Assembly: GCA_016282095.1 (NCBI GenBank)
Contig: JAEEJW010000171.1
Span: 1-49,276, forward strand
DNA from: Ruminiclostridium sp.
Lineage (GTDB): Bacteria; Bacillota; Clostridia; Oscillospirales; Ruminococcaceae
Length of the DNA stretch: 49,276 nucleotides
Direction: 5' to 3'
Shown here in pieces: positions 20,782 to 43,759 of the stretch (within the stretch, counting starts at the first letter, position 1; every line of letters starts with the position of its first letter). A program made the translations under genes and the position numbers. The notes beneath the pieces are model-generated. The model was not told the origin of the DNA, did not search any database, and worked only from the letters and a program-made list of their open reading frames with translations.

Positions 20782-21009
20782 TTATTTTATGAAAACAGCA
20801 GGAACTCTGCCGGATTCATCACTTCTCTCGCGCGAGAACTGTGCTATTATAGTTCCGCCGTCAGTTTCGGCAAGAACGACATGATCACGTCCGCCGCACA
20901 TGAGAGTGTATCTCATCACCGCGTCCGCGAAATCATCGAAATCTTCACTCTCGACCTTCATATTTCCGCCGTTGTCATAGCGTTCGGTATAACAGAGAAG
21001 ATATTTCAT
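20782..21009 (-). CDS. Small hypothetical protein
   Basis: 75-aa ORF directly downstream of a strong promoter and an RBS. Confidence 0.6.
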   Translation of the reverse strand: MKYLLCYTERYDNGGNMKVESEDFDDFADAVMRYTLMCGGRDHVVLAETDGGTIIAQFSRERSDESGRVPAVFIK

Positions 21010-21203: not shown

Positions 21204-22655
21204 TTATTTTGTATCCTGTCTGCTTTCGGTGAGTACGATGTCAATGTCAACGCTGTCAACGCCGCCGAGTCCGTTCTCGCGGGCTACGGTAACGGTTACG
21301 GTATCGCCTACCTTGAATTTGCTCAGTATGCTCTGTACATCCTTGAGGCTGGCCACATTCTTGCCGTTGACCTTGGTGATTATATCACCAACGCTCAGGC
21401 CGCTCTTTTCAACAGGCTCGCCCTCATTTATAGCAGCGACCAACATACCTTTTGAAAGCTTTGTGCCGTAGAGCTTTGCTCTGTATTCCGTGAGTTCAAT
21501 GGTGGAGATGCCCAGTACCGGACGGCTCTTTACATAGCCGTAGGTGAGAAGGTCTTCCATTATGGGCTTTGCTTCGTCTATCGTCAGCGCGAAGCCTATG
21601 CCCTCATACGTTGTCGCAATTATCTTGGAGTTTACGACACCTACGATATTGCCGTACATATCGAACATACCGCCGCCGGAGTTGCCGCTGTTGATAGCCG
21701 CGTCGGTCTGGATAAGGCTGATGCTGTAGCCGCTCTCATTCAGGCACTCAACGTCGAGGCCGGAAACGATACCCGTTGTCATGGTGTGCGCAAACATTAT
21801 ATCCGCTGTAACGCCGGGGTTGCCGATTACCGCCACCTGCTCACCTACACGGAGACTGGAGCTGTCGCCTATCTTGGCCGCGAGGAACGGCTCGTCACGT
21901 TCGATCTTTATGACCGCGATATCGGTGGAATCGTCGGAGCCTATGACCTTTGCCTCGTATTCGTGTGTCACTGCGGAGTCTTCATAATCGTTGACCTCAA
22001 CGAGCAGCTTGGAGGCACCCTTCACGACATGGGCATTCGTGAGGATATACCCGTCCTCAGTGAACATTATGCCGCTGCCGTAACCCGCATATACCGGCTC
22101 GGAGCTGCCCTTGCTGCCGCTGTCTCCGCCGTATCCGAAGAAGTAATCATAGTAGTCATACGACTCCGATGTATCTTCATATACCTTTACCAGCACGATT
22201 GTGTCATTGACCGCCTCGTAAAGCTCGGGGAGCGTGTACTGACCGTTAACGCCTGTGGGCACCACGCTTGAAGCGCTTACCTTCGCCGTCACACCGCCGT
22301 TTCCGCTGCCGGATTCGGAGATCGCTGCGAGAGCCGAGGATACCGACGGATCTGTATTCTTTGAGCCGCCATCAGAGGACGATGTACCCGACTGGTTATT
22401 GTATGTCGCTGTGACTCTGCCTGAGTCTGTGCCGATCACGCGGTTCGCAAAGTACGCACCGCCAAATCCTGCTCCGCCCGCAATTACTGCCACCGCAGCC
22501 ACAAGAGCCGCGGCCTTGGCGAATTTATGCTTTTTCTTCGGCTGAGCCTGAGGCATTACCGGCTGAGCGTAAACATAAGTTCCGTTCGCTCCGTTATCGT
22601 TATTGCTGTACTCGCTGTTATAGCCGTTGTAATTGTAATTCTGATTCTGTTCCAT
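21204..22655 (-). CDS. HtrA/DegP-like trypsin-like serine protease with PDZ domain
   Basis: N-terminal TM anchor; GYILTNAHVV, TDIAVIKI, QTDAAINSGNSGGGMFDMYGNIVGV; C-terminal PDZ PVEKSGLSVGDIITKVNGKNV. Confidence 0.95.
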   Translation of the reverse strand: MEQNQNYNYNGYNSEYSNNDNGANGTYVYAQPVMPQAQPKKKHKFAKAAALVAAVAVIAGGAGFGGAYFANRVIGTDSGRVTATYNNQSGTSSSDGGSKNTDPSVSSALAAISESGSGNGGVTAKVSASSVVPTGVNGQYTLPELYEAVNDTIVLVKVYEDTSESYDYYDYFFGYGGDSGSKGSSEPVYAGYGSGIMFTEDGYILTNAHVVKGASKLLVEVNDYEDSAVTHEYEAKVIGSDDSTDIAVIKIERDEPFLAAKIGDSSSLRVGEQVAVIGNPGVTADIMFAHTMTTGIVSGLDVECLNESGYSISLIQTDAAINSGNSGGGMFDMYGNIVGVVNSKIIATTYEGIGFALTIDEAKPIMEDLLTYGYVKSRPVLGISTIELTEYRAKLYGTKLSKGMLVAAINEGEPVEKSGLSVGDIITKVNGKNVASLKDVQSILSKFKVGDTVTVTVARENGLGGVDSVDIDIVLTESRQDTK

Positions 22656-22842: not shown

Positions 22843-24258
22843 TCAGCAGCCCGGGGTAGCGGTGCTTTCACTGCCGCTGTGCTCGCCGAGCTTCACGCCG
22901 AGGGCTATGCCGCATTCCACGCGCTTCTTCATCATGGCACACTGTATCTTGTGCGGCACGCGTACATCACCTTCATAGATGAAGCCGTTGGCGTTGCAGC
23001 CGCCGGAGCAGTAGAACCGCGCCCAGCAGTCCGAGCAGCCCTGCTTGCTGTAAATATGCGTCTTTGCGAAGTAGTCCGCTATCTTCGGATCGACGTCGCC
23101 CGTATATATGTTACCCATTTTCCACTCATCGATACCGACAAATTGATGACAGGGATAAATATCTCCGTCGGGTGTCACCGCGACATACTCGTTGCCGCAG
23201 CCGCAGCCGCGCAGTCTCTTGACAGCGCAGGGTCCCTGATTCAGATCTATCATATAGTGGAAGAAATTGAAAGGCTTTTTTCCGGTTTTTTCCACGCTGT
23301 CCGCCATTATCTCGTACAGCTTGTCATACTGTTCGTATATCGCCGGCAGATCGTCCTCAGTGATAGCCCACGGTTTATCGGCAGGCGCAGACACCGGCTC
23401 GACCGAAAGCTGATAGAAGCCCAGATCCGCTATGTGCTTCACGTCTTCTGTGAAATCGAGATTGTACTTTGTGAAAGTTCCTCTCACATAGTAATCGGTG
23501 CGTCCCTCGTTCACTCTGCCCTCAACGAGCTTCTTGTAGCGCGGAACTATGATATCATAGCAGCCCTTGCCGTTGGGAGTCACGCGTATATCATCGTTGA
23601 CTTCCTTCCTGCCGTCCAGTGAGAGCACACAGTTTGACATCTCACGGTTGATGTAGTCTATTTTCTCATCGTCCAGCAGCATACCGTTAGTCGTCACGGT
23701 GAAGCGGAAATTCTTGCCGTGCTGCTTCTCTATGCTGCGGGCGTAGTCAACGGTCGCCTTTACGGTCTCCCACGCCATGAGGGGCTCGCCGCCGAAGAAA
23801 TCGAGCTCAAGGTTCTGCCTGCCCATAGACTTCTCGATCAGAAAGTCTATCGCTTTTCTGCCTGTCTCAGGCGTCATTATCTTTCTGCCCGTACCGAAGT
23901 CGCCGGTCGATGCAAAGCAGTATTTGCAGCGCAGATTACAGTCATGAGAAACGTGCAGGCACATCGCCTTTATCGGAGCCTTGACCTTGATATCGGCGTA
24001 TTTTCTGTACTCGTCCGCGCTGTAAAGGATCCCGTCCTTGTAAAGCTCATATATCTCGGCGTAGCACTCACGGAGCTCGCTCTCGGGGTAGGCGCTCATC
24101 TTTGCAGGCAGTTCCGCCGGCATTTCCTCAGTCAGCGGAGGTTCCAGATATCCGGTCATATCGTAGACTATATCATCTACTATGTGTACCCCGCCGCTGT
24201 TTACGTCGAGGACAATATTTTCCCCGCCCTGTCTGAATCTATGTATGGTATTCGTCAT
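22843..24258 (-). CDS. Thioether cross-link-forming SCIFF peptide maturase (radical SAM/SPASM)
   Basis: CNLRCKYCFAS radical SAM motif, FFGGEPLMAW, SPASM Cys cluster CGCGNEYVAVTPDGDIYPCHQFVG...CSDCWARFYCSGGCNANG; adjacent SCIFF precursor. Confidence 0.95.
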   Translation of the reverse strand: MTNTIHRFRQGGENIVLDVNSGGVHIVDDIVYDMTGYLEPPLTEEMPAELPAKMSAYPESELRECYAEIYELYKDGILYSADEYRKYADIKVKAPIKAMCLHVSHDCNLRCKYCFASTGDFGTGRKIMTPETGRKAIDFLIEKSMGRQNLELDFFGGEPLMAWETVKATVDYARSIEKQHGKNFRFTVTTNGMLLDDEKIDYINREMSNCVLSLDGRKEVNDDIRVTPNGKGCYDIIVPRYKKLVEGRVNEGRTDYYVRGTFTKYNLDFTEDVKHIADLGFYQLSVEPVSAPADKPWAITEDDLPAIYEQYDKLYEIMADSVEKTGKKPFNFFHYMIDLNQGPCAVKRLRGCGCGNEYVAVTPDGDIYPCHQFVGIDEWKMGNIYTGDVDPKIADYFAKTHIYSKQGCSDCWARFYCSGGCNANGFIYEGDVRVPHKIQCAMMKKRVECGIALGVKLGEHSGSESTATPGC

Positions 24259-24280
24259 AATAACTCCTTTAAAAAGTACA

Positions 24281-24301
24281 GGGCAGCTTATTCAGCCGCC
24301 C
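24281..24301 (-). promoter_or_regulatory. Intercistronic hairpin between SCIFF precursor and maturase
   Basis: Minus strand GGGCGGCT-gaata-AGCTGCCC (8-bp stem with one G-U), followed by tgtaCTTTTT. Confidence 0.6.
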
Positions 24302-24326: not shown

Positions 24327-24470
24327 TTACTTGTTAGCCTCGCACTGCTGATTAGCAATAGTGCAGGAGGTCTTGCAAGCGGACTGGCAGGAAGTCTGGC
24401 ACTTGCCGCAGCCGCCCTTTGCCGCTGTTTCCTTTAAGTTAGCCTTGTTGATCGTCTTGATGTGCTTCAT
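24327..24470 (-). CDS. SCIFF (six-cysteines-in-forty-five) ranthipeptide precursor
   Basis: Translated by hand: MKHIKTINKANLKETAAKGGCGKCQTSCQSACKTSCTIANQQCEANK* (47 aa, Cys 21/24/28/32/36/43). RBS AGGAGG upstream (TATAGGAGGTTGATCATTATG). Absent from the supplied ORF track because of its length. Confidence 0.96.
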   Translation of the reverse strand: MKHIKTINKANLKETAAKGGCGKCQTSCQSACKTSCTIANQQCEANK

Positions 24471-24502
24471 AATGATCAACCTCCTATATTTATTTCCTTA
24501 AT

Positions 24503-24531
24503 ATTATATCATAGTTTTTCACAAATTGCAA
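24503..24531 (-). promoter_or_regulatory. Sigma-A promoter for the SCIFF operon
   Basis: Minus strand TTGCAA - 17 nt - TATAAT. Confidence 0.85.
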
Positions 24532-24618: not shown

Positions 24619-26646
24619 CTAATCCGCCTTCCGCAGCTTCGCAAGAACGCGGGAGCTTTCGAGATCGACCTTCGCGCGGACGGGGAGAAGCCCGACGGTA
24701 TCCTTGGCGATATCTCGGCGCGCAATGCCGAATTCCTCGAAAATATCAAGTATAATACCGAATTTGCAGCAGTTTATATCCATACGGTCAGCAGTTATCT
24801 CCGCCCTTGACAGGGAGCGGGTACTGCGGAGTATGTCGTAGACCTGTCTGCGCTCTGCATCGGTGGGGATCATTCTGACCAGCAGCTTCGGATCTACGCT
24901 GCCGCAGCGGTAGTCTTCGTAGGCGGTCTTCGCCGCGAGATAACGTTCCTGCCGGAACCCCACATACCGCATATCCCGCACGAACGCCGAAATGCTGCGT
25001 TCGCCGCGAAACTCATTGATCATCAGCGTAACGATCATATCCACACGATCGCCTTCTACATAAGGAAAAGCATCAAATGCCATGCCTGAGTACACCGCGC
25101 GGAGCTCCCTGCCGCCGAAGTTCAGTCCGAAGGACGTGCTTCTGCCCTCTTTGACAGCCTTCTTTGAACGTATTTCACAGTTCCGGAGCAGGAAAAGCGG
25201 CTCACGGTTGCCCTCACCGAAGGGTTCAAGATTCGAGATCGGCTCGATAGCTGCGATGTCTATGTCCTCGGGCGCAGCTTCGATATCTGCGATCAGCGTA
25301 TTGCAGCAGGTACCTTTGATTCGCTCCGCACAGTAGGCGTGGACAGCGTCCGTGAACTCCTGTAATCTGGAGGTCTCAACAGTAAGGCCTGCGGCGCGCG
25401 GATGTCCTCCGTGCCGCAAAAGCAGGTCGGAACAGTTTTCCAGCATCTCGAACATATTCAGCCCGTCAACACTGCGGGCACTTCCGCGGGCAGTATCGCC
25501 CTCACGGGTTATGACTATATTGGGTTTGCCATACTTTTTCAGCAGTTCACCGCTGGCAAGACCTATTACTCCGTGCTGCCAGCCGTCACCGCTGACGATC
25601 AGCAGCTTGTGATCCAGCAGACCGGGGTCGCGGCTTATCTGCTCGTCTATCTGGGCGGTTATCGCTTCGCCCAGCTCCTTGCGGCGGGTGTTCAGCTCAC
25701 ACAGGGTCAGGGCATTCGCTGTCGCAGTGTTCATTGTTTCGGCAAGCAGGGTTTCCATAGCCGCGGCAGGTGTGTCTATCCTGCCGGCTGCGTTTATCTT
25801 GGGACTTATCTTGAATCCGATGAAGGACGAGGTTATCTCCATGCCCTCCTCCCAGCCGCTCATGATCAGCAGGCGGTTGAGTCCCATATTCTCTGTGTTT
25901 TCCATGAGCCGCAGGCCTTCGCGCACGATCACGCGGTTCTCCCCGCCGATATCAACAACATCAGCAATAGTCCCCAGCGCCGCCATGTCGGCATACTGCA
26001 TGAATATGCTGTCGGCGCTCCCGCCGGTAAGGGTCTCTATCGCCATGAGCAGCTTCAGAGCCACTCCGCAGCCGGCAAACTCCTTGTACGGCGAAGTATC
26101 GTCCGGCCTGTGGGGATCGACTACGGCTATGGCGTCGGGAATCTCCTCCGGCACCTGGTGGTGGTCGGTGATTATGAGTTTCATGCCATTTTCTTTTATA
26201 TACCGTGCCTCCACCGCCGCAGAAATGCCGGTATCCACGGTAACTATCAGCTCGGTGCCGCGTTTTTTTAGCAGGTCGATAGAAGGGATATCCAGTCCAT
26301 AGCCCTCGTCACGGGTCGGGATATACCAGTCCACATCGGCTCCGCAGGCCTGTAAATAGCTCACCAGCATATATGTCGATGTAACGCCGTCACAGTCGTA
26401 GTCGCCGAAAACGGTTATCCGCGTCCCGTCCTCAACAGCCTGCGCAAGAGCTGCGGCGGCCTTGTCCATATCCTTTATGGTCATGGGGTCGGAGAGCCCG
26501 GTGCCGTTGAAGAACACGTCGGCGGCTTCCTTGGTCGCTATCCCGCGGGAGACGAGTATCCGGCATATCAGGGGCGGAAGCCCGGTATCCCTCCGCAGGG
26601 CTTCTGCGACTCCGGGATCGGGTTCATTTATCTGCCATTTATACAT
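24619..26646 (-). CDS. recJ: Single-stranded-DNA-specific exonuclease RecJ
   Basis: VFGDYDCDGVTSTYML, LIITDHHQVPEEIPDAIAVVDPHR, RHGGHPRAAGLTVE motifs of DHH/DHHA1 RecJ. Confidence 0.96.
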   Translation of the reverse strand: MYKWQINEPDPGVAEALRRDTGLPPLICRILVSRGIATKEAADVFFNGTGLSDPMTIKDMDKAAAALAQAVEDGTRITVFGDYDCDGVTSTYMLVSYLQACGADVDWYIPTRDEGYGLDIPSIDLLKKRGTELIVTVDTGISAAVEARYIKENGMKLIITDHHQVPEEIPDAIAVVDPHRPDDTSPYKEFAGCGVALKLLMAIETLTGGSADSIFMQYADMAALGTIADVVDIGGENRVIVREGLRLMENTENMGLNRLLIMSGWEEGMEITSSFIGFKISPKINAAGRIDTPAAAMETLLAETMNTATANALTLCELNTRRKELGEAITAQIDEQISRDPGLLDHKLLIVSGDGWQHGVIGLASGELLKKYGKPNIVITREGDTARGSARSVDGLNMFEMLENCSDLLLRHGGHPRAAGLTVETSRLQEFTDAVHAYCAERIKGTCCNTLIADIEAAPEDIDIAAIEPISNLEPFGEGNREPLFLLRNCEIRSKKAVKEGRSTSFGLNFGGRELRAVYSGMAFDAFPYVEGDRVDMIVTLMINEFRGERSISAFVRDMRYVGFRQERYLAAKTAYEDYRCGSVDPKLLVRMIPTDAERRQVYDILRSTRSLSRAEITADRMDINCCKFGIILDIFEEFGIARRDIAKDTVGLLPVRAKVDLESSRVLAKLRKAD

Positions 26647-26810: not shown

Positions 26811-27713
26811 TCATACGCTCGCGTTGAAGCGGCGTCCGTCCTCGGCATCATTGCCGAGAAGTATGTCAAGCTCGGATTGTTTGTCTTCAGTGCGCTCCGC
26901 AAGCAGCTTCGCGACTATATCGGCTTCCATATTCTTCATTTCGCCGATCTCTTCCGGTGATGCGGATTCGGCTTCATCTACCTCATCAGCCTCCTCCGCT
27001 GCCGCAAGCTCCTCCAGTTTCTTTGCGCGCAGCTCCGCAAGTTTCTCGGCCTGCGCATCACGGGCAGCTTTGAGCTTTTCGAGCATCTCCTCCACGCTGG
27101 ATGCTTTTATTGTGTCACTTCCGTCATCAGCAAACAAGCCTTCCATCAGCTTCGCGCGCAATGTAAGGTTCCCGTCCGCATCAATGGTCGTACCGAATTT
27201 ATCAACCATATCGGCGTCCTCGCCGAATTCTTTCTTGACAGCGTCGATACTTTCAATGCTCTGATCTATAAGGCCCTCGTACTTTGCGGCAGTCTCCTCG
27301 TCCGCTGCCATTCTTTCAAGCAGCGCAGGTGTAATGACCGCGTTATACTGACCTTTTCCGGTCGCGAGAAGCGCGTCCGCCTCTGCGTCCGTCTTATAAT
27401 CGGCGATGATGAAGTCAACGTTGCCGTACTTCTTTTTCAGGTCATCAAGGTATTTCTGCGCAGTCTCGCTGAGTTTCGGAGCCTTGTCCGAAGCCGCGCC
27501 TATGCGCATACCGCCGTCTACCGCGTTCTGCTGAGGTTCCTCAATGAACGATGAGAACTCGGCTTTATCGAAATTTCTTTCTGCAGCGTCGGAAGCCTGC
27601 TTTTTATCTCCGCCCACTTCGCTGCGCCACGGATCGCCCTTTTTCCCATTGTTTACCTGATGCGCCGAGCCGACCTTGCCGTAACCGTTGATATTATGGA
27701 TCATCTTCATCAC
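26811..27713 (-). CDS. Hypothetical protein (possibly DUF6033-like), adjacent to the flagellar operon
   Basis: 300-aa acidic, helical protein with FIIADYKTDAEADALLATGKGQYNAVITPALLERMAADE; own promoter and terminator. Start ambiguous (GTG 27713, ATG 27710 or ATG 27704). Confidence 0.7.
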   Translation of the reverse strand: MMKMIHNINGYGKVGSAHQVNNGKKGDPWRSEVGGDKKQASDAAERNFDKAEFSSFIEEPQQNAVDGGMRIGAASDKAPKLSETAQKYLDDLKKKYGNVDFIIADYKTDAEADALLATGKGQYNAVITPALLERMAADEETAAKYEGLIDQSIESIDAVKKEFGEDADMVDKFGTTIDADGNLTLRAKLMEGLFADDGSDTIKASSVEEMLEKLKAARDAQAEKLAELRAKKLEELAAAEEADEVDEAESASPEEIGEMKNMEADIVAKLLAERTEDKQSELDILLGNDAEDGRRFNASV

Positions 27714-27843: not shown

Positions 27844-29283
27844 TTACAGAATAACTATTGCACTGCCGTTGGACTTTATAGTCGGGTGCGGCATGTCATT
27901 ATGAATTATCTGCGTAAATCCGCCGATGTCGAGTATCGTGCCGCCGTACACCATTGTCTTGGCGCGCAGTGTAGCCGCTCCGGCAGCTGTGATGATGTCT
28001 TTCATTTTCTTCAGCTGTTCGACAAGCGGTCCCTTGTCTGCGACTTTCTGAGTGCGTATGCGCAGAGCGGCTTCGAGGAAGCTTTCGTCCTCAAGAGTCG
28101 CGGTTCCTTCTTTTTCACGCTCTCTTATCTCGCTGACCTGGTGCATGATCTTCGACAGTTCCTTGTCGATGCGCTTAAGGCCGTTTTCGAGGATCTCGGC
28201 CTCCCGGCTGTATTCATCGTGATTTCCCATAATTATGTGGGTTTCAAGACGATCACGGTTGCCGACGAGCACACAGTTGATACTGCCGGCGCATACCACC
28301 TCGCCGCCGGTTATGCGTCCCGCTCCGGTAAGGCAATCTATGCCATATACGCTCTTGGCTGTACAGCACTCGATTATATCGGCTATGATCTTTTCTCCCG
28401 CAACAAGAGTGCTTGTATAGAATTCCTTGCCTGTCAGCGTTCCGCTCGCGGCAGATACTGAAGTATCCTCGGTCTTGCCGTCTATCGTCACATTTCTGCC
28501 TGCTTCCAGAACGGCCGCATACACCTTGCCGTGTACGGTTATGCTGCCGCCCGCGCGGATCACGCTTCTGGCATTGACATTACCGTTTATTACTATCGAG
28601 CCCTCGAATTCCACAACGCCCATACTGTGCTCGATATTCCTGTCGAACACTTTTTCATTGATGACGCAATATTTACCGTCGCGCAGTACAAAACGCCCCA
28701 AACAGTCAGAGTAGAAATGATTGCCGCGTTTATATATACCCTCGCCGAAATCAAAGACCGCTTCTTTTCCCGGCTCTGCGGGAAGCACTCTGCCGCGCAC
28801 ATCCATGCCGTCCCTGCCGGGTTTCGGTACTGCAAGATGACAGAGCTCGGTGTCCTTTTCTACATTCGTACCATCCTCACCGGATGTCTGCACCTTCATC
28901 TTAACGGTACCGTCCGTTCCCTTTACGGGCGGAGTTCCGGTCGCTATGACCACAGGTGTGTTTACGATGTCTTCGGCCGCGATCCTCCGTACTGCCGCTT
29001 CGTCGATGCCGCAGAACACTCCGGCCGTCGAAGCTTCGCGCATTAAGTCATCGGCAGTGAATGGCTTGTGGTCATCCGAACCGGTCATTACGGTACAGAC
29101 AGCCCGCATATTGTCCGGCGATATCTTCACTGTTATGAGTATCATAGACTCCGCGAGCCCGGATATCCTTCCGGCGCTCTCATCTGCGAACGGATTCCGG
29201 AATGTACCTGCTTTTTCGGGGTGAATGATCTCCTCGAGGATACTGTCGAAAAGATCGTCCAGCTTTTTCAGATCTTCTTCCAT
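27844..29283 (-). CDS. FapA family (DUF342) protein
   Basis: VQTSGEDGTNVEKDTELCHLAVPKPGRDGMDVRGRVLPAEPGK...beta-helix-like GSIVINGNVNARSVIRAGGSITVHGKVYAAVLEAGRNVTIDG. Confidence 0.85.
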   Translation of the reverse strand: MEEDLKKLDDLFDSILEEIIHPEKAGTFRNPFADESAGRISGLAESMILITVKISPDNMRAVCTVMTGSDDHKPFTADDLMREASTAGVFCGIDEAAVRRIAAEDIVNTPVVIATGTPPVKGTDGTVKMKVQTSGEDGTNVEKDTELCHLAVPKPGRDGMDVRGRVLPAEPGKEAVFDFGEGIYKRGNHFYSDCLGRFVLRDGKYCVINEKVFDRNIEHSMGVVEFEGSIVINGNVNARSVIRAGGSITVHGKVYAAVLEAGRNVTIDGKTEDTSVSAASGTLTGKEFYTSTLVAGEKIIADIIECCTAKSVYGIDCLTGAGRITGGEVVCAGSINCVLVGNRDRLETHIIMGNHDEYSREAEILENGLKRIDKELSKIMHQVSEIREREKEGTATLEDESFLEAALRIRTQKVADKGPLVEQLKKMKDIITAAGAATLRAKTMVYGGTILDIGGFTQIIHNDMPHPTIKSNGSAIVIL

Positions 29284-29311
29284 ACAGCTCCTCCGATCCT
29301 GCGGTACAGAC

Positions 29312-29794
29312 TCACAGTTTCTTTTTGCCCTTGATCGTCGAGCTTATCTCAACGTCACCGTTTTCCGCCCAGAAAGTCATCGTGCGTCCGTAATTCAGAC
29401 CCGTGTCCTCCGCGATTATCGGTATGCGCAGCTTGCGCAGCGCTTCCTTGACAGCCTCGATATTGCGCTGCCCTATGTTGAACTTGGAATTGGTCGTCTG
29501 GAACATTACCGCCCCGCCTGCGATCTTAGCCTTCATCGCGGCAGGGTTCGCACCCATGATCCTCATTTTCTCCACCATATCCGGCAGAGCGGTGTCGGCG
29601 AACTTCATTCTTGTCGTATGTCCGTCTATGATAGCGGTACTGTCGGGAAGCATTATGTGCGAAAGCCCGGATATGCCCGTAGTCCTGTCATATATGCAGG
29701 TACCGATGCACGAGCCAAGCGCGTATGTAACAAGTATGTCATCGCCGCGGCCGATCTTCCAGTCCGATATGCCTATTATCAGCTTCTGCCCCAT
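29312..29794 (-). CDS. cheD: Chemoreceptor glutamine deamidase CheD
   Basis: TYALGSCIGTCIYDRTTGISGLSHIMLPDS...KFADTALPDMVEKMRIMGANPAAMKAKIAGGAVMF. Confidence 0.95.
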   Translation of the reverse strand: MGQKLIIGISDWKIGRGDDILVTYALGSCIGTCIYDRTTGISGLSHIMLPDSTAIIDGHTTRMKFADTALPDMVEKMRIMGANPAAMKAKIAGGAVMFQTTNSKFNIGQRNIEAVKEALRKLRIPIIAEDTGLNYGRTMTFWAENGDVEISSTIKGKKKL

Positions 29795-30414
29795 TACGCA
29801 ACCCCCAGCCTTCCGAGCAGATTATCAAGCGAGTCTATTGTGGGAAGAAGCAGCATCTTCGACTGTATGCTCGTTTTATCGATTATCATGTTATTGTCGA
29901 TGAAAAGCAGTTTATCGCCCATTTCGCCCATTTCTATAGCCGGAACGCTCATTATTGCTCCCAGCATATCAACAGCCATGACCGGCACCTCGATGTCTAT
30001 GGTCATTCCCGCCAGCTGCGCGATAGCGTTGACGTAAGAGCCGGCCATGATGTTGCCCATTTCGTTGAGTGCGGAATTCTCGGCCTCGGAAAGCGAGAAT
30101 ATATCCTTCGGAGCCTCACCGAAGAAGGTTTTTTCAATAAGCCCGATAAGGTTCTCTTCAAACAGGAACATAATCATGCCTTCGATATCGCCGTTTATCC
30201 TGATGAGGATACCCGCGATGACCTTTTCGGGGCCTCCTACCGCGTTTATCGCGTCATTGAAATCGAGAATCGCAACCTTTGGCACCTCTATATCTATCAT
30301 CTTTCCGACCATGGACGAGAGTGCCGTTGCGGCGTTTCCGGAGCCGATGTTGCCGACTTCACGGAGAACGTCGATCTGCATATCGTTGAGGTCTTCGTAT
30401 TTTCCGATACTCAT
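29794..30414 (-). CDS. cheC: Chemotaxis protein CheC (CheY-P phosphatase)
   Basis: Paired active-site-like motifs DVLREVGNIGSGNA and NSALNEMGNIMAGSY; next to cheD. Confidence 0.92.
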   Translation of the reverse strand: MSIGKYEDLNDMQIDVLREVGNIGSGNAATALSSMVGKMIDIEVPKVAILDFNDAINAVGGPEKVIAGILIRINGDIEGMIMFLFEENLIGLIEKTFFGEAPKDIFSLSEAENSALNEMGNIMAGSYVNAIAQLAGMTIDIEVPVMAVDMLGAIMSVPAIEMGEMGDKLLFIDNNMIIDKTSIQSKMLLLPTIDSLDNLLGRLGVA

Positions 30415-30447
30415 ATCTGTATATTTCCTTTCAAAAAATTAACATGG

Positions 30448-31230
30448 TCAGCCGCGCAGATTATTGGCTATATTCATCATTTCGTCAGATGTAGTGACCA
30501 CTCTCGCGCTGAACTGGTATGAGCGCTGGGTCTCGATGAGATGCACCATTTCCGAGGCAAGATCAACCGTGGACATTTCCAGAGCCTCGCGTATCAGCTC
30601 TCTGTCCTCCGCCACCACAGGCTCACCGGAACGCGGCGTGACTGCGAAGTGGTTGTCTTCGTTCTGGTCAAGTCCCCAGTTGTTGTCAACCGCGAAGATA
30701 CCGATCTGCTCCGTCAGGGCATCATAATCTATCTTTGTGGTCATATAGCGCTCAGTGCCGGTTATGTTGCCGTCCGCGTCCATGACCGGTCTTTCTTCCT
30801 CCACAAACGGTACGACTATATGATTCTTCTCATTGTCGAGCACAAACTCGCCGCGAGCCGTCACAAGCTCCCAGTGATCGTTGTCTATATGGGATATCTG
30901 GAACGAGCCGTCACGGGTCAGGTATTCCCTGCCGCGTTCGTCGCGTACCATGAAGAAGTTGTCGTTGGGTATTGCATAATCGAGAGGCTGGTCGCTCATA
31001 TAGAACATACCCTGCTCCCACATGAAATCGGTCTTCATTATGTACTGACCGTGACCGGTCTGCCACTCTTCCTCGGTGGCTCTCTGCACCGTGTAGACGC
31101 AGTCCGCGAAACTCGGGCGCAGCGACTTGAAACCAACGGTATTCACATTCGCAATGTTATGCGAGTATATGTTCATGCCTTCCTGCTGTGCGATCATTCC
31201 AGATGCACCGGTATAAAACGATATATTCAT
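30448..31230 (-). CDS. flgG: Flagellar hook-basal body/rod protein (FlgG/FlgF family)
   Basis: YTGASGMIAQQEGMNIYSHNIANVNTVGFK N-terminus; C-terminal VDLASEMVHLIETQRSYQFSARVVTTSDEMMNIANNLR. Confidence 0.85.
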   Translation of the reverse strand: MNISFYTGASGMIAQQEGMNIYSHNIANVNTVGFKSLRPSFADCVYTVQRATEEEWQTGHGQYIMKTDFMWEQGMFYMSDQPLDYAIPNDNFFMVRDERGREYLTRDGSFQISHIDNDHWELVTARGEFVLDNEKNHIVVPFVEEERPVMDADGNITGTERYMTTKIDYDALTEQIGIFAVDNNWGLDQNEDNHFAVTPRSGEPVVAEDRELIREALEMSTVDLASEMVHLIETQRSYQFSARVVTTSDEMMNIANNLRG

Positions 31231-31272
31231 AGATCTACCTCGCTCTTACGGCTCTTACGCCGCTTTCCGCAC

Positions 31273-32010
31273 TTACGATATCGAAGCGATATCTACTGCC
31301 TTGCTGTTGATCTGATCGAGTGCCTTGAGTATCTTGCTGTTTGCTTCATAAAGGCGGTGCGCCTCCATGAGCTGGGTTATTTCCTTGTTTCCGTCAACGT
31401 TCGAGTGTTCCCACGCGCCCTGTATCACGTCGAAGAATTCACCTTCAGGGAGCTGCTCGCCGCCCTCATAGAGCATCAGGTCGTTTCCGATCTTGTCTAC
31501 ATCGGCCTCTGGCGGTATATATGTGAGCAGCAGGGTATCGACTGTCTCGCCGTTGATCGTTATCACACCGTCGTTGTTTATCTCGAAATCATCGACTCCG
31601 AGGAATATATCTCCGTTCCTGCCCTGGACTCTGCCTGCCTTGCCGAGTATCAGATACCCTTCACCGTCCAGTTCCCACTGGCCGTTGCGGGTCTGATAGA
31701 CATTGCCTGCATTGTCACGGATATTGAAGTACACATTGCCGTATATAGCGACATCGAAATTGCTCTCGGTGTATGTGAAATTGCTCTGTTCAAGATTTGT
31801 CATGGAAATATCGGCGTAAGTCTGGAGAAAATGCCCCGAAGTCTCCCGCCGTCCGTTCACGAGTATCAGCTCGTCCATGAAGGTGTTCGTGACTATCTCA
31901 TCCTTGCGGTAGCCGGAGGTATTGACGTTTACGATGTTATTACCTATAGCGTCGAGTTGTCTCTGCTTGACTATCATGCCCTGCGCGGCATTGTAAAAAC
32001 CTCTTAACAC
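31273..32010 (-). CDS. flgF: Flagellar hook-basal body/rod protein (FlgF/FlgG family)
   Basis: MLRGFYNAAQGMIVKQRQLDAIGNNIVNVNTSGYRKDE; C-terminal EITQLMEAHRLYEANSKILKALDQINSKAVD. Confidence 0.85.
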   Translation of the reverse strand: MLRGFYNAAQGMIVKQRQLDAIGNNIVNVNTSGYRKDEIVTNTFMDELILVNGRRETSGHFLQTYADISMTNLEQSNFTYTESNFDVAIYGNVYFNIRDNAGNVYQTRNGQWELDGEGYLILGKAGRVQGRNGDIFLGVDDFEINNDGVITINGETVDTLLLTYIPPEADVDKIGNDLMLYEGGEQLPEGEFFDVIQGAWEHSNVDGNKEITQLMEAHRLYEANSKILKALDQINSKAVDIASIS

Positions 32011-32128
32011 GGGCTGTCCTCCTTATCTTCCGGTTCATACCGGATGTTATCTGCGTTCTGCTCCGGGCGGCTTTATGTCCGCCCGCCCGCTGCTGCGCGT
32101 ATCGGACAGGAACGCTGCCTGTTTATCG

Positions 32129-32869
32129 TTACTTTCTCATATAATCGGTGAGCTGATGCTTCAGGAACAGTATTGCCTTTGAATGTATCTGACTGACGCG
32201 GGACTCGGTAAGGCCGAGGACCCGTGCGATCTCACTGAATTTGAGCTGCTCGTAATAGTAGAGCGTTATGACCTGCTTTGCGCGGTCACTGAGTTCGTTT
32301 ATCGCTTCGGTGATGACTTTCTTCTGCTCGGCGCGGTACATAGCTGCATCGGCGGCGTCATCGGATTCCATTATGTCAAAGTTGTCCTCATACAGCAACT
32401 CCTCGAAAGACAGCGTCACAGCGCCGGCGGATTCTGCCATGCGCTTTTCCAGCATATCCCGTGAAAGCCCCATGTGCTCGGCGAGCTCGGCATTCTTCGG
32501 ATGACGTCCGAGCTTTGTGAAAAGCTCGTTGTATGCGGTGTCCAGCTCTCTGCCGAATGTGCGCACCTGACGCGGTATCCAGTCCTGCTTGCGGACGAAA
32601 TCGACAATAGCGCCCTTTATCTTGATGTTCGCGTAGGTCTCGAACTTGACGCCGCGGTCAAGGTCAAAGCTCTCTATCGCGGACATCAGCGCTATGACGC
32701 CTTCGTTCACCACGTCGTCGGGAGAAGCGTACTTTATGTAGATATTGCGAAGCGACATGGCAAGCATACGCACAAGGTCGAGGTAACGCAGAACGATATC
32801 ATTGCGCAAATTGATATCCTGCGTCTCACGATATTCGCGTATAGCCTGCAATACATCATAATCCGCCAA
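32129..32869 (-). CDS. fliA: RNA polymerase sigma factor for flagellar genes (FliA/SigD/WhiG family)
   Basis: LAMSLRNIYIKYASPDDVVNEGVIALMSAIESFDLDRGVKFETYANIKIKGAIVDFVRKQDWIPRQVR...VITLYYYEQLKFSEIARVLGLTESRVSQIHSKAILFLK. Confidence 0.95.
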   Translation of the reverse strand: MADYDVLQAIREYRETQDINLRNDIVLRYLDLVRMLAMSLRNIYIKYASPDDVVNEGVIALMSAIESFDLDRGVKFETYANIKIKGAIVDFVRKQDWIPRQVRTFGRELDTAYNELFTKLGRHPKNAELAEHMGLSRDMLEKRMAESAGAVTLSFEELLYEDNFDIMESDDAADAAMYRAEQKKVITEAINELSDRAKQVITLYYYEQLKFSEIARVLGLTESRVSQIHSKAILFLKHQLTDYMRK

Positions 32870-32916
32870 CTGCGTCCGCCCCCCTCCTTGGAAAATGCTG
32901 CGGCCTCATGCCGCAG

Positions 32917-34998
32917 TTATAATGCTATGCTCCCCACAGACTGTATCTGTGTCGTGCTGTCTATCTCACTGTACGAAAGCACGGTGATATTCTGGAGGAA
33001 CTGGTCTATCAGCTTCTTGAAATATACTCTTACTATAGGCGAAGTAAGTATGATTACGTTCGGGATAACGTCCTTTATCTTGTTCACTTCGTCCGTTGTC
33101 TTTGCCACGATGCGCTGAATCGTGTCGGGATCCATGGACAGATAGCTTCCCTGATCGGACTTCTTCACACTTGCGACGATCATATCCTCTATCCTCGGAT
33201 CTATGGTTATCACGCGCAGGGAGTTCGCCTCGGCGAAGCGCCTCGTTATAGTGCGGCGCAGAGCCTGTCTTACATACTCCACGGTGATATCTATATCCTT
33301 CATTGTGGTGAGATGGTCGCTCAGGGTCTCGAGTATTGTCTCCATATCCCTTATCGGAACGCCCTCACGCAGCAGCATGGAGAGTACCTTCTGGAGATAA
33401 CCGTAGGAAATGACATTCGGAACAAGATCCTCGACGATAGTGGCATTGGTTTTCTTGATGTTCTCCACCATAGTCTTGACATCCTGGCGTGTGAGGATCT
33501 CGCTGCAGTGCTGCTTGATGACTTCGGACAGGTGGGTTATCATTACGGAAACGGGGTCTATCAGAGTATATCCTGCCACATCCGCAGCGACCTTCTTGTC
33601 CTCGCTTATCCAGCGGGCAGGGATTCCGAAAGCCGGTTCTATGGTGTCGATACCGTCCACCGGCATCGATACATCGCCGTTATCCAGCGCGAGATAATGA
33701 TCGACAAGGATCTCTCCTCTGGCGACCTCCTCGCCCTTGATCTTGATTATGTACTGGTTCGGGTTTATATCCGGGTTATCGCGCATACGCACTGAAGGTA
33801 TTACCATGCCCATATCCAGCGCGAACTGCTTTCTGAACAGTACGACACGCTCTATGAAGTTTCCGCCGCTCCGCTCGTCAACGAGATGCAGCAGCGAGTA
33901 ACCGAACTCCATTTCCACCTGCTCCACATTGAGCAGCTTGAATACATTGTCGATATCGCGATAGTAGTCCGTGTCCGTGGTCGGCCGCTGTTCCTTGGCC
34001 TCCTCGACCTGTTTCTGCGCTTCGGCAGCCTCGGCAACCTGCGCCTCACGGGTCTGGGTACGCCGCAGATAAATACCGGCGTACAGGAGAGCCCCGCCCA
34101 GCAGCGCGAGTATGGGCTTCGGGAAGCCCGGCACCAGCATCAGCACGATCATTACCGCACCGGTTATGATCATAACTGTCGGGTTGTTTGTGAACTGGCG
34201 CTTTACGTCCTCGTTGAAGCTGCCCTCACTCGCGGTTCTGGTAACTACCATACCGGTGGCGACGGATATCAGCAGTGAGGGTATCTGCGAGCACAGACCG
34301 TCACCGACTGTCGCCAGCGAGTATGTGCTCATAACGGTGCCTACATCGGCACCTCCGATTATTCCTATGATAGCACCGCCGATAAGGTTTATCAGCGATG
34401 TGATTATCGACATTATAGCGTCACCTTTGACGAACTTGGTGGCACCGTCCATTGCTCCGAAAAAGTCCGCTTCACGCTGTACGTTAGCACGGCGTATCTT
34501 TGCTTCTTCGTCTGTTATTGCCCCTGTGTTGAGGTCGGCGTCTATGGACATCTGCTTACCGGGCATTGCGTCCAGGGTAAATCTCGCAGCAACTTCGGAA
34601 ACACGTTCCGAACCCTTGGTGATAACAAGGAAATTCGCGAGGAATATGATTATAAAGATGATAAATCCTACTACCGGGTCGCCGCCCATTACGAACTGTC
34701 CGAATGTTGCAATGACCGAACCCGCCTGTCCTGTGCTGAGTATGCCTCGGGTGGTCGAAACGTTCAGCGCAAGCCGGAATACCGTAGTGATGAGCAGTAT
34801 GGTCGGGAAGATCGAAAATTCGAGGGCTTCCTTTATATACATGGTCATCAGCAGTATTACCAGCGACAGACCTATATTGACAAGGAGCAGAAAATCAAGC
34901 AGCGCTCCGCCCATGATGCCGTTGAGTGGTATGATGAGCGCGAGGATGATAAATACGACGAACACGGCAAATACATTGCTCATCATTCTTTTTACCAT
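32917..34998 (-). CDS. flhA: Flagellar biosynthesis protein FlhA
   Basis: VVFIILALIIPLNGIMGGALLDFLLLVNIGLSLVILLMTMYI, GSERVSEVAARFTLDAMPGKQMSIDADLNTGAITDEEA. Confidence 0.98.
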   Translation of the reverse strand: MVKRMMSNVFAVFVVFIILALIIPLNGIMGGALLDFLLLVNIGLSLVILLMTMYIKEALEFSIFPTILLITTVFRLALNVSTTRGILSTGQAGSVIATFGQFVMGGDPVVGFIIFIIIFLANFLVITKGSERVSEVAARFTLDAMPGKQMSIDADLNTGAITDEEAKIRRANVQREADFFGAMDGATKFVKGDAIMSIITSLINLIGGAIIGIIGGADVGTVMSTYSLATVGDGLCSQIPSLLISVATGMVVTRTASEGSFNEDVKRQFTNNPTVMIITGAVMIVLMLVPGFPKPILALLGGALLYAGIYLRRTQTREAQVAEAAEAQKQVEEAKEQRPTTDTDYYRDIDNVFKLLNVEQVEMEFGYSLLHLVDERSGGNFIERVVLFRKQFALDMGMVIPSVRMRDNPDINPNQYIIKIKGEEVARGEILVDHYLALDNGDVSMPVDGIDTIEPAFGIPARWISEDKKVAADVAGYTLIDPVSVMITHLSEVIKQHCSEILTRQDVKTMVENIKKTNATIVEDLVPNVISYGYLQKVLSMLLREGVPIRDMETILETLSDHLTTMKDIDITVEYVRQALRRTITRRFAEANSLRVITIDPRIEDMIVASVKKSDQGSYLSMDPDTIQRIVAKTTDEVNKIKDVIPNVIILTSPIVRVYFKKLIDQFLQNITVLSYSEIDSTTQIQSVGSIAL

Positions 34999-35053
34999 CT
35001 CTTACTTCCTGCCTCCTTTCGTTTTTCTGTTTTATGTCATGTACCGGAAAATC

Positions 35054-36178
35054 TTATCCCGATCGTCCGTTCCCTTCGCCGGCACGGTTTGCACCGTCTG
35101 TGGGCGGTTCGAACTTTATGCCCTTTGCGGTAAACATATCAGAGATAACCACCGCCACTGCCTTGAACAGCGAACTCGGTATCTCCTGCCCTATCTCTAC
35201 GGTCTCGTACAGCTCTCTTGCGAGAGGACGATCCTCTGTTATGAATACGCCGCTTTTTTCGGCTATTTCGATTATCTTGAGTGCAAGAGCATCTTTGCCC
35301 TTTGCCACGACGAACGGCGCCAAATACGCCGATGTCTCGGTGTCATATTTCAGCGCCACAGCGTAGTGTGTAGGGTTTCTGACTACCACATCGGAGCCCG
35401 GTACCTGCTCCATCATACGCTGCTGCGCCATTTCACGCTGTTTCTGCTTTATCTTGCCCTTTATCTGCGGGTCACCTTCGGTCTGCTTGTACTCGTCCTT
35501 GACTTCCTGTTTTGACATTTTCAGGTTCTTCTCAAACTGGTACCACTGAAACAGGTAATCCCCCGCCGCCACGAACACGAATATGACACAGAGTATCATC
35601 ACTATCGTGAATATGGTGTTCGCTATATAAGCCACCGCATAAATGGGTTCGGTGTCCACAAGACTCACTATCTCTGTCATGCGGCTCTCGATCTGGCCGT
35701 AGACCACGAAGATTATCGCAGAGAGTTCGATAATGCCCTTGAGAATACCGACCGCAGCCTGCGCCGAGAACATCTTCTTGATGCCGTTCAGCGGATTCAG
35801 CTTCGAAAATTTCGGCTTCAGCGGCTTCATCGTGAACAGCCCGCGGGTCTGGGCCATGACTGTTATTACCACGATCAGGGCTATTATCGCACAAAGCGGC
35901 AGCACTATCATTACTGCCTGCTTTATTACATTGAAGAATATATTGGTATAGGTGCTGAATTCGTTGTCGTATTCCATTCCTACCTTTTCGAGCCCTTCGG
36001 TCATTATCTTTGTGAGCTGAACGAACATATAGGAACTGAGAACGGCAAGCGCCGAGAAAGTTCCGAGTATCGCCACGGCTGTAACGACCTCGTTGCTCTG
36101 GAGCACCTGGCCTTCTTTTTCTCTGGCGTCACGCCGTTTTTTCGGCGTCGCCTTTTCGGTTTTGTCTTCTCCCGGCAA
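35054..36178 (-). CDS. flhB: Flagellar biosynthesis protein FlhB
   Basis: DKTEKATPKKRRDAREKEGQV; autocleavage motif VVRNPTHYAVALKYD. Confidence 0.98.
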   Translation of the reverse strand: MPGEDKTEKATPKKRRDAREKEGQVLQSNEVVTAVAILGTFSALAVLSSYMFVQLTKIMTEGLEKVGMEYDNEFSTYTNIFFNVIKQAVMIVLPLCAIIALIVVITVMAQTRGLFTMKPLKPKFSKLNPLNGIKKMFSAQAAVGILKGIIELSAIIFVVYGQIESRMTEIVSLVDTEPIYAVAYIANTIFTIVMILCVIFVFVAAGDYLFQWYQFEKNLKMSKQEVKDEYKQTEGDPQIKGKIKQKQREMAQQRMMEQVPGSDVVVRNPTHYAVALKYDTETSAYLAPFVVAKGKDALALKIIEIAEKSGVFITEDRPLARELYETVEIGQEIPSSLFKAVAVVISDMFTAKGIKFEPPTDGANRAGEGNGRSG

Positions 36179-36200
36179 CGACGATCACCTCACCCGGGAA

Positions 36201-36992
36201 CTATACGAAATGCCTTACCGCCGCGTCAAGATTCGTCCACAGGTACCCGAACAGCTTATCGATGAACTCGGAATACGGTCCTGCCGCTGCGATTATGACT
36301 ATGAAGCCGACTATCAGCTTCAGGTGGATATTCAGAACAAATATCTGTATCGTAGGCACCGCTTTCATTATGATGCCCATGCAGAATTCGACTATCAACT
36401 CTGCCGCCAGCAGCGGCATAGCAAATTTCAGTGCCAGCTCCATTATCGTGCCCATATACATGACAATGATGAGCGCCAGATCAATGGTCGCCCCTGTAAA
36501 CCCGTACCCCAGCGGTATTGTCTCGTATGAGAGACTGAACAGCTTTATATACGACAGGTGACTGCCCGTGACAAAGAAGCATAGCACGAACATATAATAG
36601 TAGTAATTGCCGAATACCGGCATCGTAACTCCGGTCGCGGGGTCGTAAGCCTTAGCCATTCCGAGGCCGACCTCGGTATCCATGATCTCACCGGCGTACA
36701 GCAGTACCGTCAGTATCAGATTCGTGAAAAATCCGAATACTATGCCGATGAACAGTTCCTTTATGACTACGAACGCGAATCCGATGACTCCCGTAAATTC
36801 CGGAGCAGCGGCCGATCCGCCCATGGACGCCGTCATCAGTACTGCCAGAACTATGGACATGAAGGCTTTTATATTAGCCGGCGTGTTGTTCCGGGCGAAT
36901 ATCGGGTTGAAGGTAAATATCCCCGTAACCCGGCACAGCACGAATATGAACGCCGTGAAATTGCTGTAAAGTGTTTCCCAGACGAACATCAC
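36201..36992 (-). CDS. fliR: Flagellar biosynthetic protein FliR
   Basis: TGIFTFNPIFARNNTPANIKAFMSIVLAVLMT; position between fliQ and flhB. Confidence 0.96.
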   Translation of the reverse strand: MMFVWETLYSNFTAFIFVLCRVTGIFTFNPIFARNNTPANIKAFMSIVLAVLMTASMGGSAAAPEFTGVIGFAFVVIKELFIGIVFGFFTNLILTVLLYAGEIMDTEVGLGMAKAYDPATGVTMPVFGNYYYYMFVLCFFVTGSHLSYIKLFSLSYETIPLGYGFTGATIDLALIIVMYMGTIMELALKFAMPLLAAELIVEFCMGIIMKAVPTIQIFVLNIHLKLIVGFIVIIAAAGPYSEFIDKLFGYLWTNLDAAVRHFV

Positions 36993-37261
36993 GGAATAGG
37001 CGTGGTCGCCATGAGCTCAACTATACGGTTGAAGAAATCTATGATGCTGGAGCACATCCACGGTCCCATTGCGAGGAGCGCCAGCGCTACGATTATGGCT
37101 TTCGGCGCGAAGGTGAGAGTCTGCTCATGCACCTGCGTTGCGGCCTGTAATATCGCGATTATGAGTCCGACGAGCATCGCTATCAGCAGCGTCGGCACCG
37201 CAAGCTTGAACGCAAGGATTATAGCTTCGGTGAATATCTCAAGTACAAGATCCTCGGACAT
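36989..37261 (-). CDS. fliQ: Flagellar biosynthetic protein FliQ
   Basis: VPTLLIAMLVGLIIAILQAATQVHEQTLTFAPKAIIVALALLAMGPWM. Confidence 0.97.
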   Translation of the reverse strand: MSEDLVLEIFTEAIILAFKLAVPTLLIAMLVGLIIAILQAATQVHEQTLTFAPKAIIVALALLAMGPWMCSSIIDFFNRIVELMATTPIP

Positions 37262-37292
37262 TTATGCATCGACCTCCCCGATCCCTGCTCCG

Positions 37293-38288
37293 CTAAACAT
37301 TGAAGGAATTTACGAGTGTACCGACGAGCATCTGCCAGCCGTCAACAAGCACGAACAGCATTATCTTGAACGGCAGCGATATCATCGAAGGCGGCAGCAT
37401 CATCATACCCATTGCCATAAGGGTCGAGGAAACGACTATATCTATGACAAGGAAAGGTATGAAGAGCATGAAGCCCATCTGGAAGGCTCTCGTAAGCTCA
37501 CTGATTATAAACGACGGTATAACGACTTCCAGCCCGAGCTGGTCGGCATAGTCGGTAAGCTCCTCATCGGTCTGTGTCAGATCGACAGGCACTTTTACTA
37601 TGCTCTCTACCGGTTCTATCGGCTGTATAAAGTCCGGATCTATCACGCTGCCGTTATCCTCGGGGGCCGTAGTCTGCGCCGCAGCAGCCTCTTTAGCCTG
37701 TTCCTGCGCTTTGTAGACCGACTGACCTTTAAGTTCGAGGAAGAACTGCATATTCCTGCGCGATGTGTTTTTCAGCATGAATGTCTTGAGCGTATCCCCG
37801 GAACGGTCGAGCATCTCGTTTATGGATATCTCTCCCGCGGCATAGGGCTGATAGGCGTTGTCATTTATCTGAGTGAACGTCGGCCACATGACAAACAGTG
37901 TAAGAAATAACGAAAGCCCCATCAATACCGAGTTGGGCGGGATAGACTGGGTCTGCATCGCGTTTCTTAAAAAGCTGAAAACTATGACGATCCTTGTGAA
38001 TGATGTAAGCATCACAAGGAACGACGGGGCGACCGACAGTATGGTGATTATCAGTATCACTTCAAGGGACTGGGAGCCGTCTATGCCGATGAGCTGCTTG
38101 AGCAGCGAATCATCGACGGGTTCGGTGCCCGGATTCCCCGCAAGTACCTCGGTCTCTGCGTCTCCTTCCGCAGCGCCCAGCGCCGAGGCTGTGACGCATA
38201 TCACTGACATCAGCAGACACGTCACGACAAAGGATATGATGAACCTGATAAAATACTTACTGTTCTGTTTTATCGTTTCCTTGACCAT
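37293..38288 (-). CDS. fliP: Flagellar biosynthetic protein FliP (with extended periplasmic insert)
   Basis: SVAPSFLVMLTSFTRIVIVFSFLRNAMQTQSIPPNSVLMGLSLFLTLFVM...VVIPSFIISELTRAFQMGFMLFIPFLVIDIVVSSTLMAMGMMMLPP. Confidence 0.97.
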   Translation of the reverse strand: MVKETIKQNSKYFIRFIISFVVTCLLMSVICVTASALGAAEGDAETEVLAGNPGTEPVDDSLLKQLIGIDGSQSLEVILIITILSVAPSFLVMLTSFTRIVIVFSFLRNAMQTQSIPPNSVLMGLSLFLTLFVMWPTFTQINDNAYQPYAAGEISINEMLDRSGDTLKTFMLKNTSRRNMQFFLELKGQSVYKAQEQAKEAAAAQTTAPEDNGSVIDPDFIQPIEPVESIVKVPVDLTQTDEELTDYADQLGLEVVIPSFIISELTRAFQMGFMLFIPFLVIDIVVSSTLMAMGMMMLPPSMISLPFKIMLFVLVDGWQMLVGTLVNSFNV

Positions 38289-38646
38289 TGCCGTTATCCT
38301 TTCCCGTGCCTTTATTCCTTTTCATGACCTCGGCAAACGCAGCAGCAAATGACATACCGTTCTGCGCTTCGGGAGATGACTGCTGGGCATAGTATTCCTC
38401 GGGGCTCATATCTATGTCGGCGAGCTTTTCGATATGCTGCCCCGTAACGCCGACGAGCATCAGCTTACCGGCGACACAAACAACAACAAGCATACCGTCT
38501 CTTCCGAGTGATACTCTGTCGATGACCTTCATTCGATTCCCGTTGACATATCCGAGCCCGCCGTTGAGCTTCTTCATAGCATACACAAGTATGAAGAACA
38601 ACCCGAGTACGCCAGCAAGGGAAAGGATCATCCAGATCCATTCCAT
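38257..38646 (-). CDS. fliO: Flagellar biosynthetic protein FliO-like
   Basis: Single TM followed by MKVIDRVSLGRDGMLVVVCVAGKLMLVGVTGQHIEKLADID; syntenic position between cheY and fliP. Confidence 0.85.
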   Translation of the reverse strand: MEWIWMILSLAGVLGLFFILVYAMKKLNGGLGYVNGNRMKVIDRVSLGRDGMLVVVCVAGKLMLVGVTGQHIEKLADIDMSPEEYYAQQSSPEAQNGMSFAAAFAEVMKRNKGTGKDNGNGQGNDKTEQ

Positions 38647-38652
38647 ACCGGA

Positions 38653-39015
38653 TCAGCCGAGTATCTTGGTGACTGTCGCTATTATTCTGTCCGGTTTGAA
38701 CGGCTTTACGATGAAGTCCAGCGCGCCGAGCTTGATAGCCTCAACGACCATGGCTTCCTGACCCATGGCGCTGCACATAACGACCTTTGCCGCGGGATTC
38801 ATCTTCTTGATATCGGCAAGAGCCTCGATACCGGTCTTGTTGGGCATTGTTATGTCCATGATAACGAGATCGGGCTTCTCTGCTTCATAAGTCTGGCAGG
38901 CGATAGCGCCGTCCTGCGCCTCAAGGATATTCGTGTATCCGTTCTTTGTGAGGGTATCCTTGATGAGCATTCTCATGAAGGCTGCATCGTCGACCAATAA
39001 AATCTTCTTGTCCAT
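38653..39015 (-). CDS. cheY: Chemotaxis response regulator CheY
   Basis: ILLVDDAAFMRMLIKDTL...DLVIMDITMPNKTGIEAL...GALDFIVKPFKPDRI; receiver domain only. Confidence 0.96.
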   Translation of the reverse strand: MDKKILLVDDAAFMRMLIKDTLTKNGYTNILEAQDGAIACQTYEAEKPDLVIMDITMPNKTGIEALADIKKMNPAAKVVMCSAMGQEAMVVEAIKLGALDFIVKPFKPDRIIATVTKILG

Positions 39016-39021
39016 AGCTGT

Positions 39022-40401: not shown

Positions 40402-40404
40402 AAA

Positions 40405-41394
40405 TCAAACCTCGCTTCTGTAAACATTTTCGATCTTTACCGCTTTGTTCTGATTGAACGAGCCGAGTTTTCCGTCGAACCAGATCTTACTGCCGATCCT
40501 TAGTTTCACGTTGCTTTCGATGCTGATGTCAAGCGGGATTATGTCATCTACCTGGAGATTGAGAACATCGTAGACATCAAGGGAAGTATTGCCCAGCACT
40601 GCGGTAATATCCAGCGAAGTTTCGTTGAGCGCCTTCATTATGTTTTCGCGTCTTTCCTGTTCTCTTACGGCATCGAATTTGCGCGTCGTCCTGACGGACC
40701 TCGTCATATACTTCTGCATGATCTCATCGAGTGTGAGTACGGGCATACAGATCGTTATTATCGTTTTTGTGTCGTTGACGGTAGCTTCCAGTGCCACGAG
40801 GATCATCGTATCATCGTAATCGACCGCCGAATAGACTCTGGAGTTGGTCTCGATGTTCACGACGGTGGGATTGACCTCAAGGTAAGGCTCCCACGGCTCG
40901 CGGAGCAGCGCCGCCATATTGTTGATTATCTTGTCTATTATGCTGACCTCTATCTCGGTGAAGTCTCTGTCGGCGTCCTTGTATTCGCCTCTGCCGCCGA
41001 GAAGTCTGTCGATCAGCGTATATGTAAGCGAGTTTGAAAGCTGGACTATCGAAGTCACTGTGCCTATATCGTCATCGTGTATGCCGAGGTCGAGCGTTCC
41101 CATCATTACATAGTCGGGCAGCGCGTTGTTGAACTCGAAATACCGCTGTTCCTCTATTGAAGCAAGCGTGACCTTGCAGTATAGTCTCAGGAGTCCCGTT
41201 AAATACGAGGAAAGAAGTCTTGCGTAGTTGTCGAAGATGCTGTCGAGTATCTTTATTCGCTCTTTGGTAAATTTCTTCGGTGCGCGGAAGTCATATTCCT
41301 TGACTTCCGGCTCCTTGCTGCTCTCGACTACCCCGCCGTTCATCGCGCTGCTTAAAAGCGCGTCTATCTGTTCCTGCGTAAGGGTCTCAGCCAT
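40405..41394 (-). CDS. fliM: Flagellar motor switch protein FliM
   Basis: N-terminal CheY-binding motif LTQEQIDALL; C-terminal SpoA domain; adjacent to fliY. Confidence 0.97.
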   Translation of the reverse strand: MAETLTQEQIDALLSSAMNGGVVESSKEPEVKEYDFRAPKKFTKERIKILDSIFDNYARLLSSYLTGLLRLYCKVTLASIEEQRYFEFNNALPDYVMMGTLDLGIHDDDIGTVTSIVQLSNSLTYTLIDRLLGGRGEYKDADRDFTEIEVSIIDKIINNMAALLREPWEPYLEVNPTVVNIETNSRVYSAVDYDDTMILVALEATVNDTKTIITICMPVLTLDEIMQKYMTRSVRTTRKFDAVREQERRENIMKALNETSLDITAVLGNTSLDVYDVLNLQVDDIIPLDISIESNVKLRIGSKIWFDGKLGSFNQNKAVKIENVYRSEV

Positions 41395-41445
41395 TCAAAC
41401 CTCACCTCACCTTCTGCTCTGAGATATCCGATACCTGACTGTGCC

Positions 41446-43733: not shown

Positions 43734-43759
43734 ATTCTATCCTTGTATAAACCGCTTAT

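Follow-up and report, generated by a model that had tools for sequence, protein, structure and literature searches.

A canonical SCIFF ranthipeptide pair from Ruminiclostridium sp., with comparative evidence on its cross-linked threonine and intercistronic hairpin

The window analyzed here, a stretch of 49,276 nucleotides from a Ruminiclostridium sp. metagenome contig, encodes a 47-residue peptide, ScfA, and an adjacent enzyme, ScfB, which very probably form a canonical SCIFF ranthipeptide pair with the expression and cross-linking scheme proposed below. The family is already known and only this member is new. The pair itself is ordinary, and its value lies in what comparison with relatives shows about the intercistronic hairpin, the acceptor residue of the cross-link and linkage to htrA and secDF. 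Its relatives bear on which threonine SCIFF peptides cross-link, a question on which published results disagree (PMC8326336), and on the expression of a peptide system that is among the most widespread in Clostridia. The relevant features, in the direction of transcription, are:

24619..26646, minus strand: recJ single-strand exonuclease, upstream of scfA in close relatives (TIGR00644, synteny)
24503..24531, minus strand: sigma-70-type promoter of scfA, TTGCAA, 17 nt, TATAAT, with extended TG (10 of 12 matches)
24480..24485, minus strand: scfA ribosome-binding site AGGAGG, 9 nt before the ATG, found in relatives too
24327..24470, minus strand: scfA, 47-residue SCIFF precursor (TIGR03973 and PF13165 matches, translation, synonymous-biased divergence)
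Within scfA, approximately residues 1-20: leader MKHIKTINKANLKETAAKGG, with the core from Cys21
24271..24301, minus strand: hairpin and T-tract between scfA and scfB, probable partial terminator (fold, relatives)
24264..24270, minus strand: scfB ribosome-binding site AAAGGAG, abutting the T-tract of the hairpin
22843..24258, minus strand: scfB, 471-residue radical SAM/SPASM SCIFF maturase (TIGR03974, homology to 5wgg_A)
21204..22655, minus strand: HtrA-like serine protease with a PDZ domain, downstream of scfB (Pfam, synteny)

Translation of 24327..24470 on the minus strand yields MKHIKTINKANLKETAAKGGCGKCQTSCQSACKTSCTIANQQCEANK, with cysteines at positions 21, 24, 28, 32, 36 and 43 of 47, in the SCIFF spacing. 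The product scores 81.5 bits against TIGR03973 (cut-off 50) and 84.3 bits against PF13165 (cut-off 27). Where codons differ between scfA and its counterparts in 14 close relatives, the change is nearly always synonymous and at the third position; the copy at one of these loci (L007) differs by 11 synonymous and no non-synonymous substitutions. This dominance of silent changes shows a real, strongly conserved gene and, together with scores above both curated family cut-offs, excludes a chance reading frame. Related species have similar -35 and -10 elements and ribosome-binding sites ahead of their own copies. At 47 residues, scfA is below any 60-residue length cut-off and is hence missed by one. 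The mechanically longest start, a TTG that gives 50 residues, is implausible, as it falls directly on the ribosome-binding site. A 46-residue open reading frame overlapping scfA on the opposite strand was ruled out as a true gene, because the substitution pattern marks the minus frame as coding. Scanning the window for Rfam families and tRNAs returned no matches.

The start of scfB lies 68 nt downstream of scfA, which places the precursor directly beside its maturase. ScfB scores 678.3 bits against TIGR03974 (cut-off 425). Two other models were rejected on score: the orphan not_ScfB (NF040492; 576.6 bits, under the cut-off of 855) and PapB (264 bits, under the cut-off of 340). The nearest solved structure is CteB (PDB 5wgg_A; E 4.3e-164, residues 4-452); the alignment begins in the N-terminal region at residue 4 and is whole-length. 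The CxxxCxxC motif of the radical SAM cluster is present (Cys107, 111 and 114), and the C-terminal SPASM region holds cysteines 344, 352, 370, 408, 411, 417, 421 and 440, all roles being assigned by alignment to CteB. An earlier note made from this DNA alone had proposed a six-cysteine, 47-residue SCIFF precursor at 24327..24470 with a strong ribosome-binding site and promoter, served by a radical SAM/SPASM maturase. These proposals hold: the minus-strand translation is identical letter for letter, the expression signals recur in relatives, and curated models and CteB homology confirm both partners. Of the maturase matches that are nearly complete, the closest (L012) has 95% identity, and most relatives are Oscillospiraceae from rumen and gut or "Ruminiclostridium" metagenome assemblies. 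The source assembly (3.0 Mb, 243 contigs) has a single maturase copy.

The claim that SCIFF precursors are near-universal in Clostridia is roughly borne out: within its own family the precursor is present in 158 of 199 genomes, or in 128 of 148 when good-quality genomes alone are counted, and the SCIFF core DNA motif occurs in 223 of 300 genomes of a phylum sample. The maturase is above its cut-off in 152 of the 199 family genomes, which divide into 151 with both partners, 7 with the precursor and a partial maturase match, 40 with neither and one with the maturase only. In that last genome (G067) the maturase match begins at contig base 3, so that the precursor would fall off the contig end. 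Co-occurrence is thus almost complete (Fisher p <= 1.5e-33, for 199 genomes that are not phylogenetically independent). Across families the core hardly varies and is as a rule present in one copy, and several reduced genomes (0.7-1.0 Mb) retain both scfA and scfB.

A single promoter upstream of scfA would drive both genes. Between them, a stem of GGGCGGC-loop-GCTGCCC at 24281..24301 is followed by the T-rich TGTACTTTTT, and the gap from this hairpin to scfB is too short in the window for a separate promoter. When the 90 nt after scfA were analyzed in 109 distinct loci, a terminator-like element (stem plus T-rich tail) was found in 84 of them, where 2.8 are expected from dinucleotide shuffles, and the fold z score was below -2 in 95. 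The stem sequence is wholly different between lineages, and the element is nonetheless conserved. An alignment of the intergenic hairpin sequences contains too many gaps to count covariation cleanly, so the tests against shuffles used position and fold. The likely role of the hairpin, judging from its fold and its recurrence, is partial termination: after the scfA stop codon it would pass only part of transcription into scfB, so that precursor would be abundant and enzyme scarce. Because scfB is left without room for its own promoter, read-through probably sets the peptide excess. A reading in which the hairpin is only an mRNA-stabilizing 3' end or a processing site appears rather unlikely; it draws on the 25 loci that failed the terminator test, most of which nevertheless fold strongly, but is at odds with the frequency of T-rich tails behind the stem. 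Partial termination between scfA and scfB was not mentioned in the literature searched, coverage of which is incomplete, nor was the hairpin as such.

In the proposed scheme, the N-terminal recognition domain of ScfB would bind the ScfA leader, by homology to the published CteB-leader structure, and the radical SAM and SPASM clusters would then join Cys32 to its acceptor through a single thioether; conservation points to the gamma carbon of Thr34 as the most likely acceptor, rather than to Thr37. One thioether only is reported for characterized SCIFF peptides (PMC8326336), despite six cysteines; thus, a single -2 Da shift is expected rather than one per cysteine. Published cross-links disagree on the acceptor, being given as Cys32-Thr37 or as Cys32-Thr34 (PMC8326336; PMC8172795). 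Thr34 is present in all 109 precursors compared, one of which has Gly37 (L072). In phylum-wide pattern searches that left positions 34, 35 and 37 free, Thr34-Ser35 was found in all of the approximately 150 SCIFF-like sites among the matches listed, two off-target matches aside, while Gly37 occurred in four among the matches listed (G220, G493, G492 and G228). Overall, Thr37 is replaced by Gly in five loci and in a doubled form, every one beside an intact full-length ScfB. The maturases of the five loci (L147, L148, L149, L150 and L072) come from several families and form one clade with 100/100 support, so the replacement represents one event rather than many and may not speak for all SCIFF peptides.

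Because Thr34 is nearly invariant and Thr37 is Gly in one ScfB clade with intact maturases, these comparisons favour Cys32-Thr34 over Cys32-Thr37 in canonical members. One precursor counts against Thr34: that of G103 (L155; genome size 1.0 Mb) has Ser34 in SACKSSCTTANQ and keeps Thr37, the adjacent maturase being intact, and Ser cannot form a gamma-carbon link at that residue. In genus g68, Cys32 is lost and ScfB retained, which we count against the proposed scheme. The comparison thus also reveals a SCIFF family that is not uniform. Its natural variants (Thr37-to-Gly, Thr34-to-Ser and loss of Cys32) could serve directly as test substrates.

Several relatives are unusual in other ways. Tandem double SCIFF precursors occur in one open reading frame in G097 (L156:1304 onward) and G183 (L158, minus strand), with Gly for Thr37 in both units and an adjoining full-length maturase; G183 additionally has a canonical pair (L157). 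The precursors of L171 (G068) and L172 (G162), in genomes of 0.7-0.8 Mb, have lost Cys32 (SAAKTSCSV and TASKTSSAV) and are not adjacent to scfB, the maturase being full length. A degenerate SCIFF-like open reading frame with an altered cysteine pattern (L177, G097:C3:8722-8844; 28.3 bits) is possibly a decaying or diverged copy.

The gene order recJ, scfA, scfB, htrA, a small open reading frame, an ECF transporter and mfd is conserved in close relatives, and the linkage of scfB to htrA reaches more distant Oscillospiraceae. The small frame, of 75 residues (20782..21009, minus strand, between the ECF transporter and htrA), is 68-95% conserved in relatives and has no Pfam or NCBIfam match. On the other side, relatives share a DUF6033 protein (26811..27713, minus strand) that sits between recJ and fapA, and a flagellar and chemotaxis cluster (FapA, CheD, FlhA, FlgE-type, FliK; 27844..48727) lies upstream of recJ on the same strand. 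Neither an exporter nor a leader peptidase was identified beside scfA and scfB.

The earlier note had called the native function poorly defined. This stands, yet the field is not blank: according to the review PMC8102284, Chen et al. (2020) disrupted the SCIFF genes of C. beijerinckii, whereupon sporulation genes went down and agr went up. Spo0A is present in the source genome and AgrB gave no match in its assembly (91.6% complete), so the agr response is not directly transferable here. The mature peptide might be a conserved signalling or housekeeping peptide of the cell's own that feeds growth-phase or sporulation control, rather than a bacteriocin; its conservation, usual single copy and near-invariance fit this better. 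This is the weakest step of our proposal, and we consider the chances even.

An unlikely alternative places the function of the pair in the cell envelope or protein export; it might, for example, be a cysteine-rich sensor of redox state or metals that serves Sec-exported proteins, and the effect on sporulation would be secondary. The linkage to envelope and export genes is suggestive of such a role and is not proof of function. Within the window's own lineage htrA follows scfB in roughly 33 of 46 loci (L003 to L048). Lachnospiraceae-type loci instead have recJ on the downstream side, at a similar distance in most, and one locus (L056) has a SecDF gene between scfB and recJ. Retention of the pair in several genomes of 0.7-1.0 Mb is expected of a basic function. 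On the other hand, the neighbours vary between lineages and include the DNA-repair genes recJ and mfd, so that the linkage may mean no more than a stable chromosome; a family search confirmed SecDF in that one locus only, and the precursor has no signal peptide by eye. In the source genome, secD and secF are on another contig. Still more doubtful is a combined picture, in which a Gly37 subfamily (with tandem doubles in one genus) and Cys32-less lineages with tiny genomes that keep the maturase would mean that ScfB makes more than the single textbook cross-link, in a basic envelope- or export-linked role tuned by a conserved intercistronic attenuator.

A role as a bacteriocin or toxin against competitors is highly improbable: ranthipeptides are counted with bacteriocin classes in genome-mining studies (PMC13289728) and many other thioether peptides are antimicrobial (PMC8326336), but the widespread, nearly identical and usually single-copy SCIFF core is unlike a diversifying bacteriocin, the neighbours mfd, the ECF transporter, the 75-residue frame, htrA and recJ include no recognizable immunity or dedicated peptide-export gene, and both sources take the wide spread as an argument against a bacteriocin and describe antimicrobial activity as not well characterized.

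The proposed signalling or housekeeping peptide and its maturase have several characterized counterparts. CteA and CteB of Clostridium thermocellum (thermocellin; PDB 5WGG and 5WHY) belong to the same precursor family, and Cys32, Thr34 and Thr37 of ScfA match the residue numbers reported for CteA. ScfB is homologous to CteB over its whole length but has a longer C-terminus (471 residues, the last 19 unaligned), the differences being at the sequence level only. Tte1186a and Tte1186 of Caldanaerobacter subterraneus are likewise a SCIFF precursor and maturase, with a reported Cys32-Thr37 thioether (PMC8326336, PMC8172795), whereas our comparative data favour Thr34 as the acceptor. The ranthipeptides of C. 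beijerinckii and C. ljungdahlii belong to the same family and have known functional genetics (Chen et al. 2020, via the review PMC8102284); in comparison, the genome studied here has Spo0A and no detectable AgrB. Freyrasin, made by PapB, whose model matches ScfB below cut-off, is also a radical SAM non-alpha thioether peptide, with six Cys-Asp links in contrast to the one reported Cys-Thr link of SCIFF peptides (PMC8326336).
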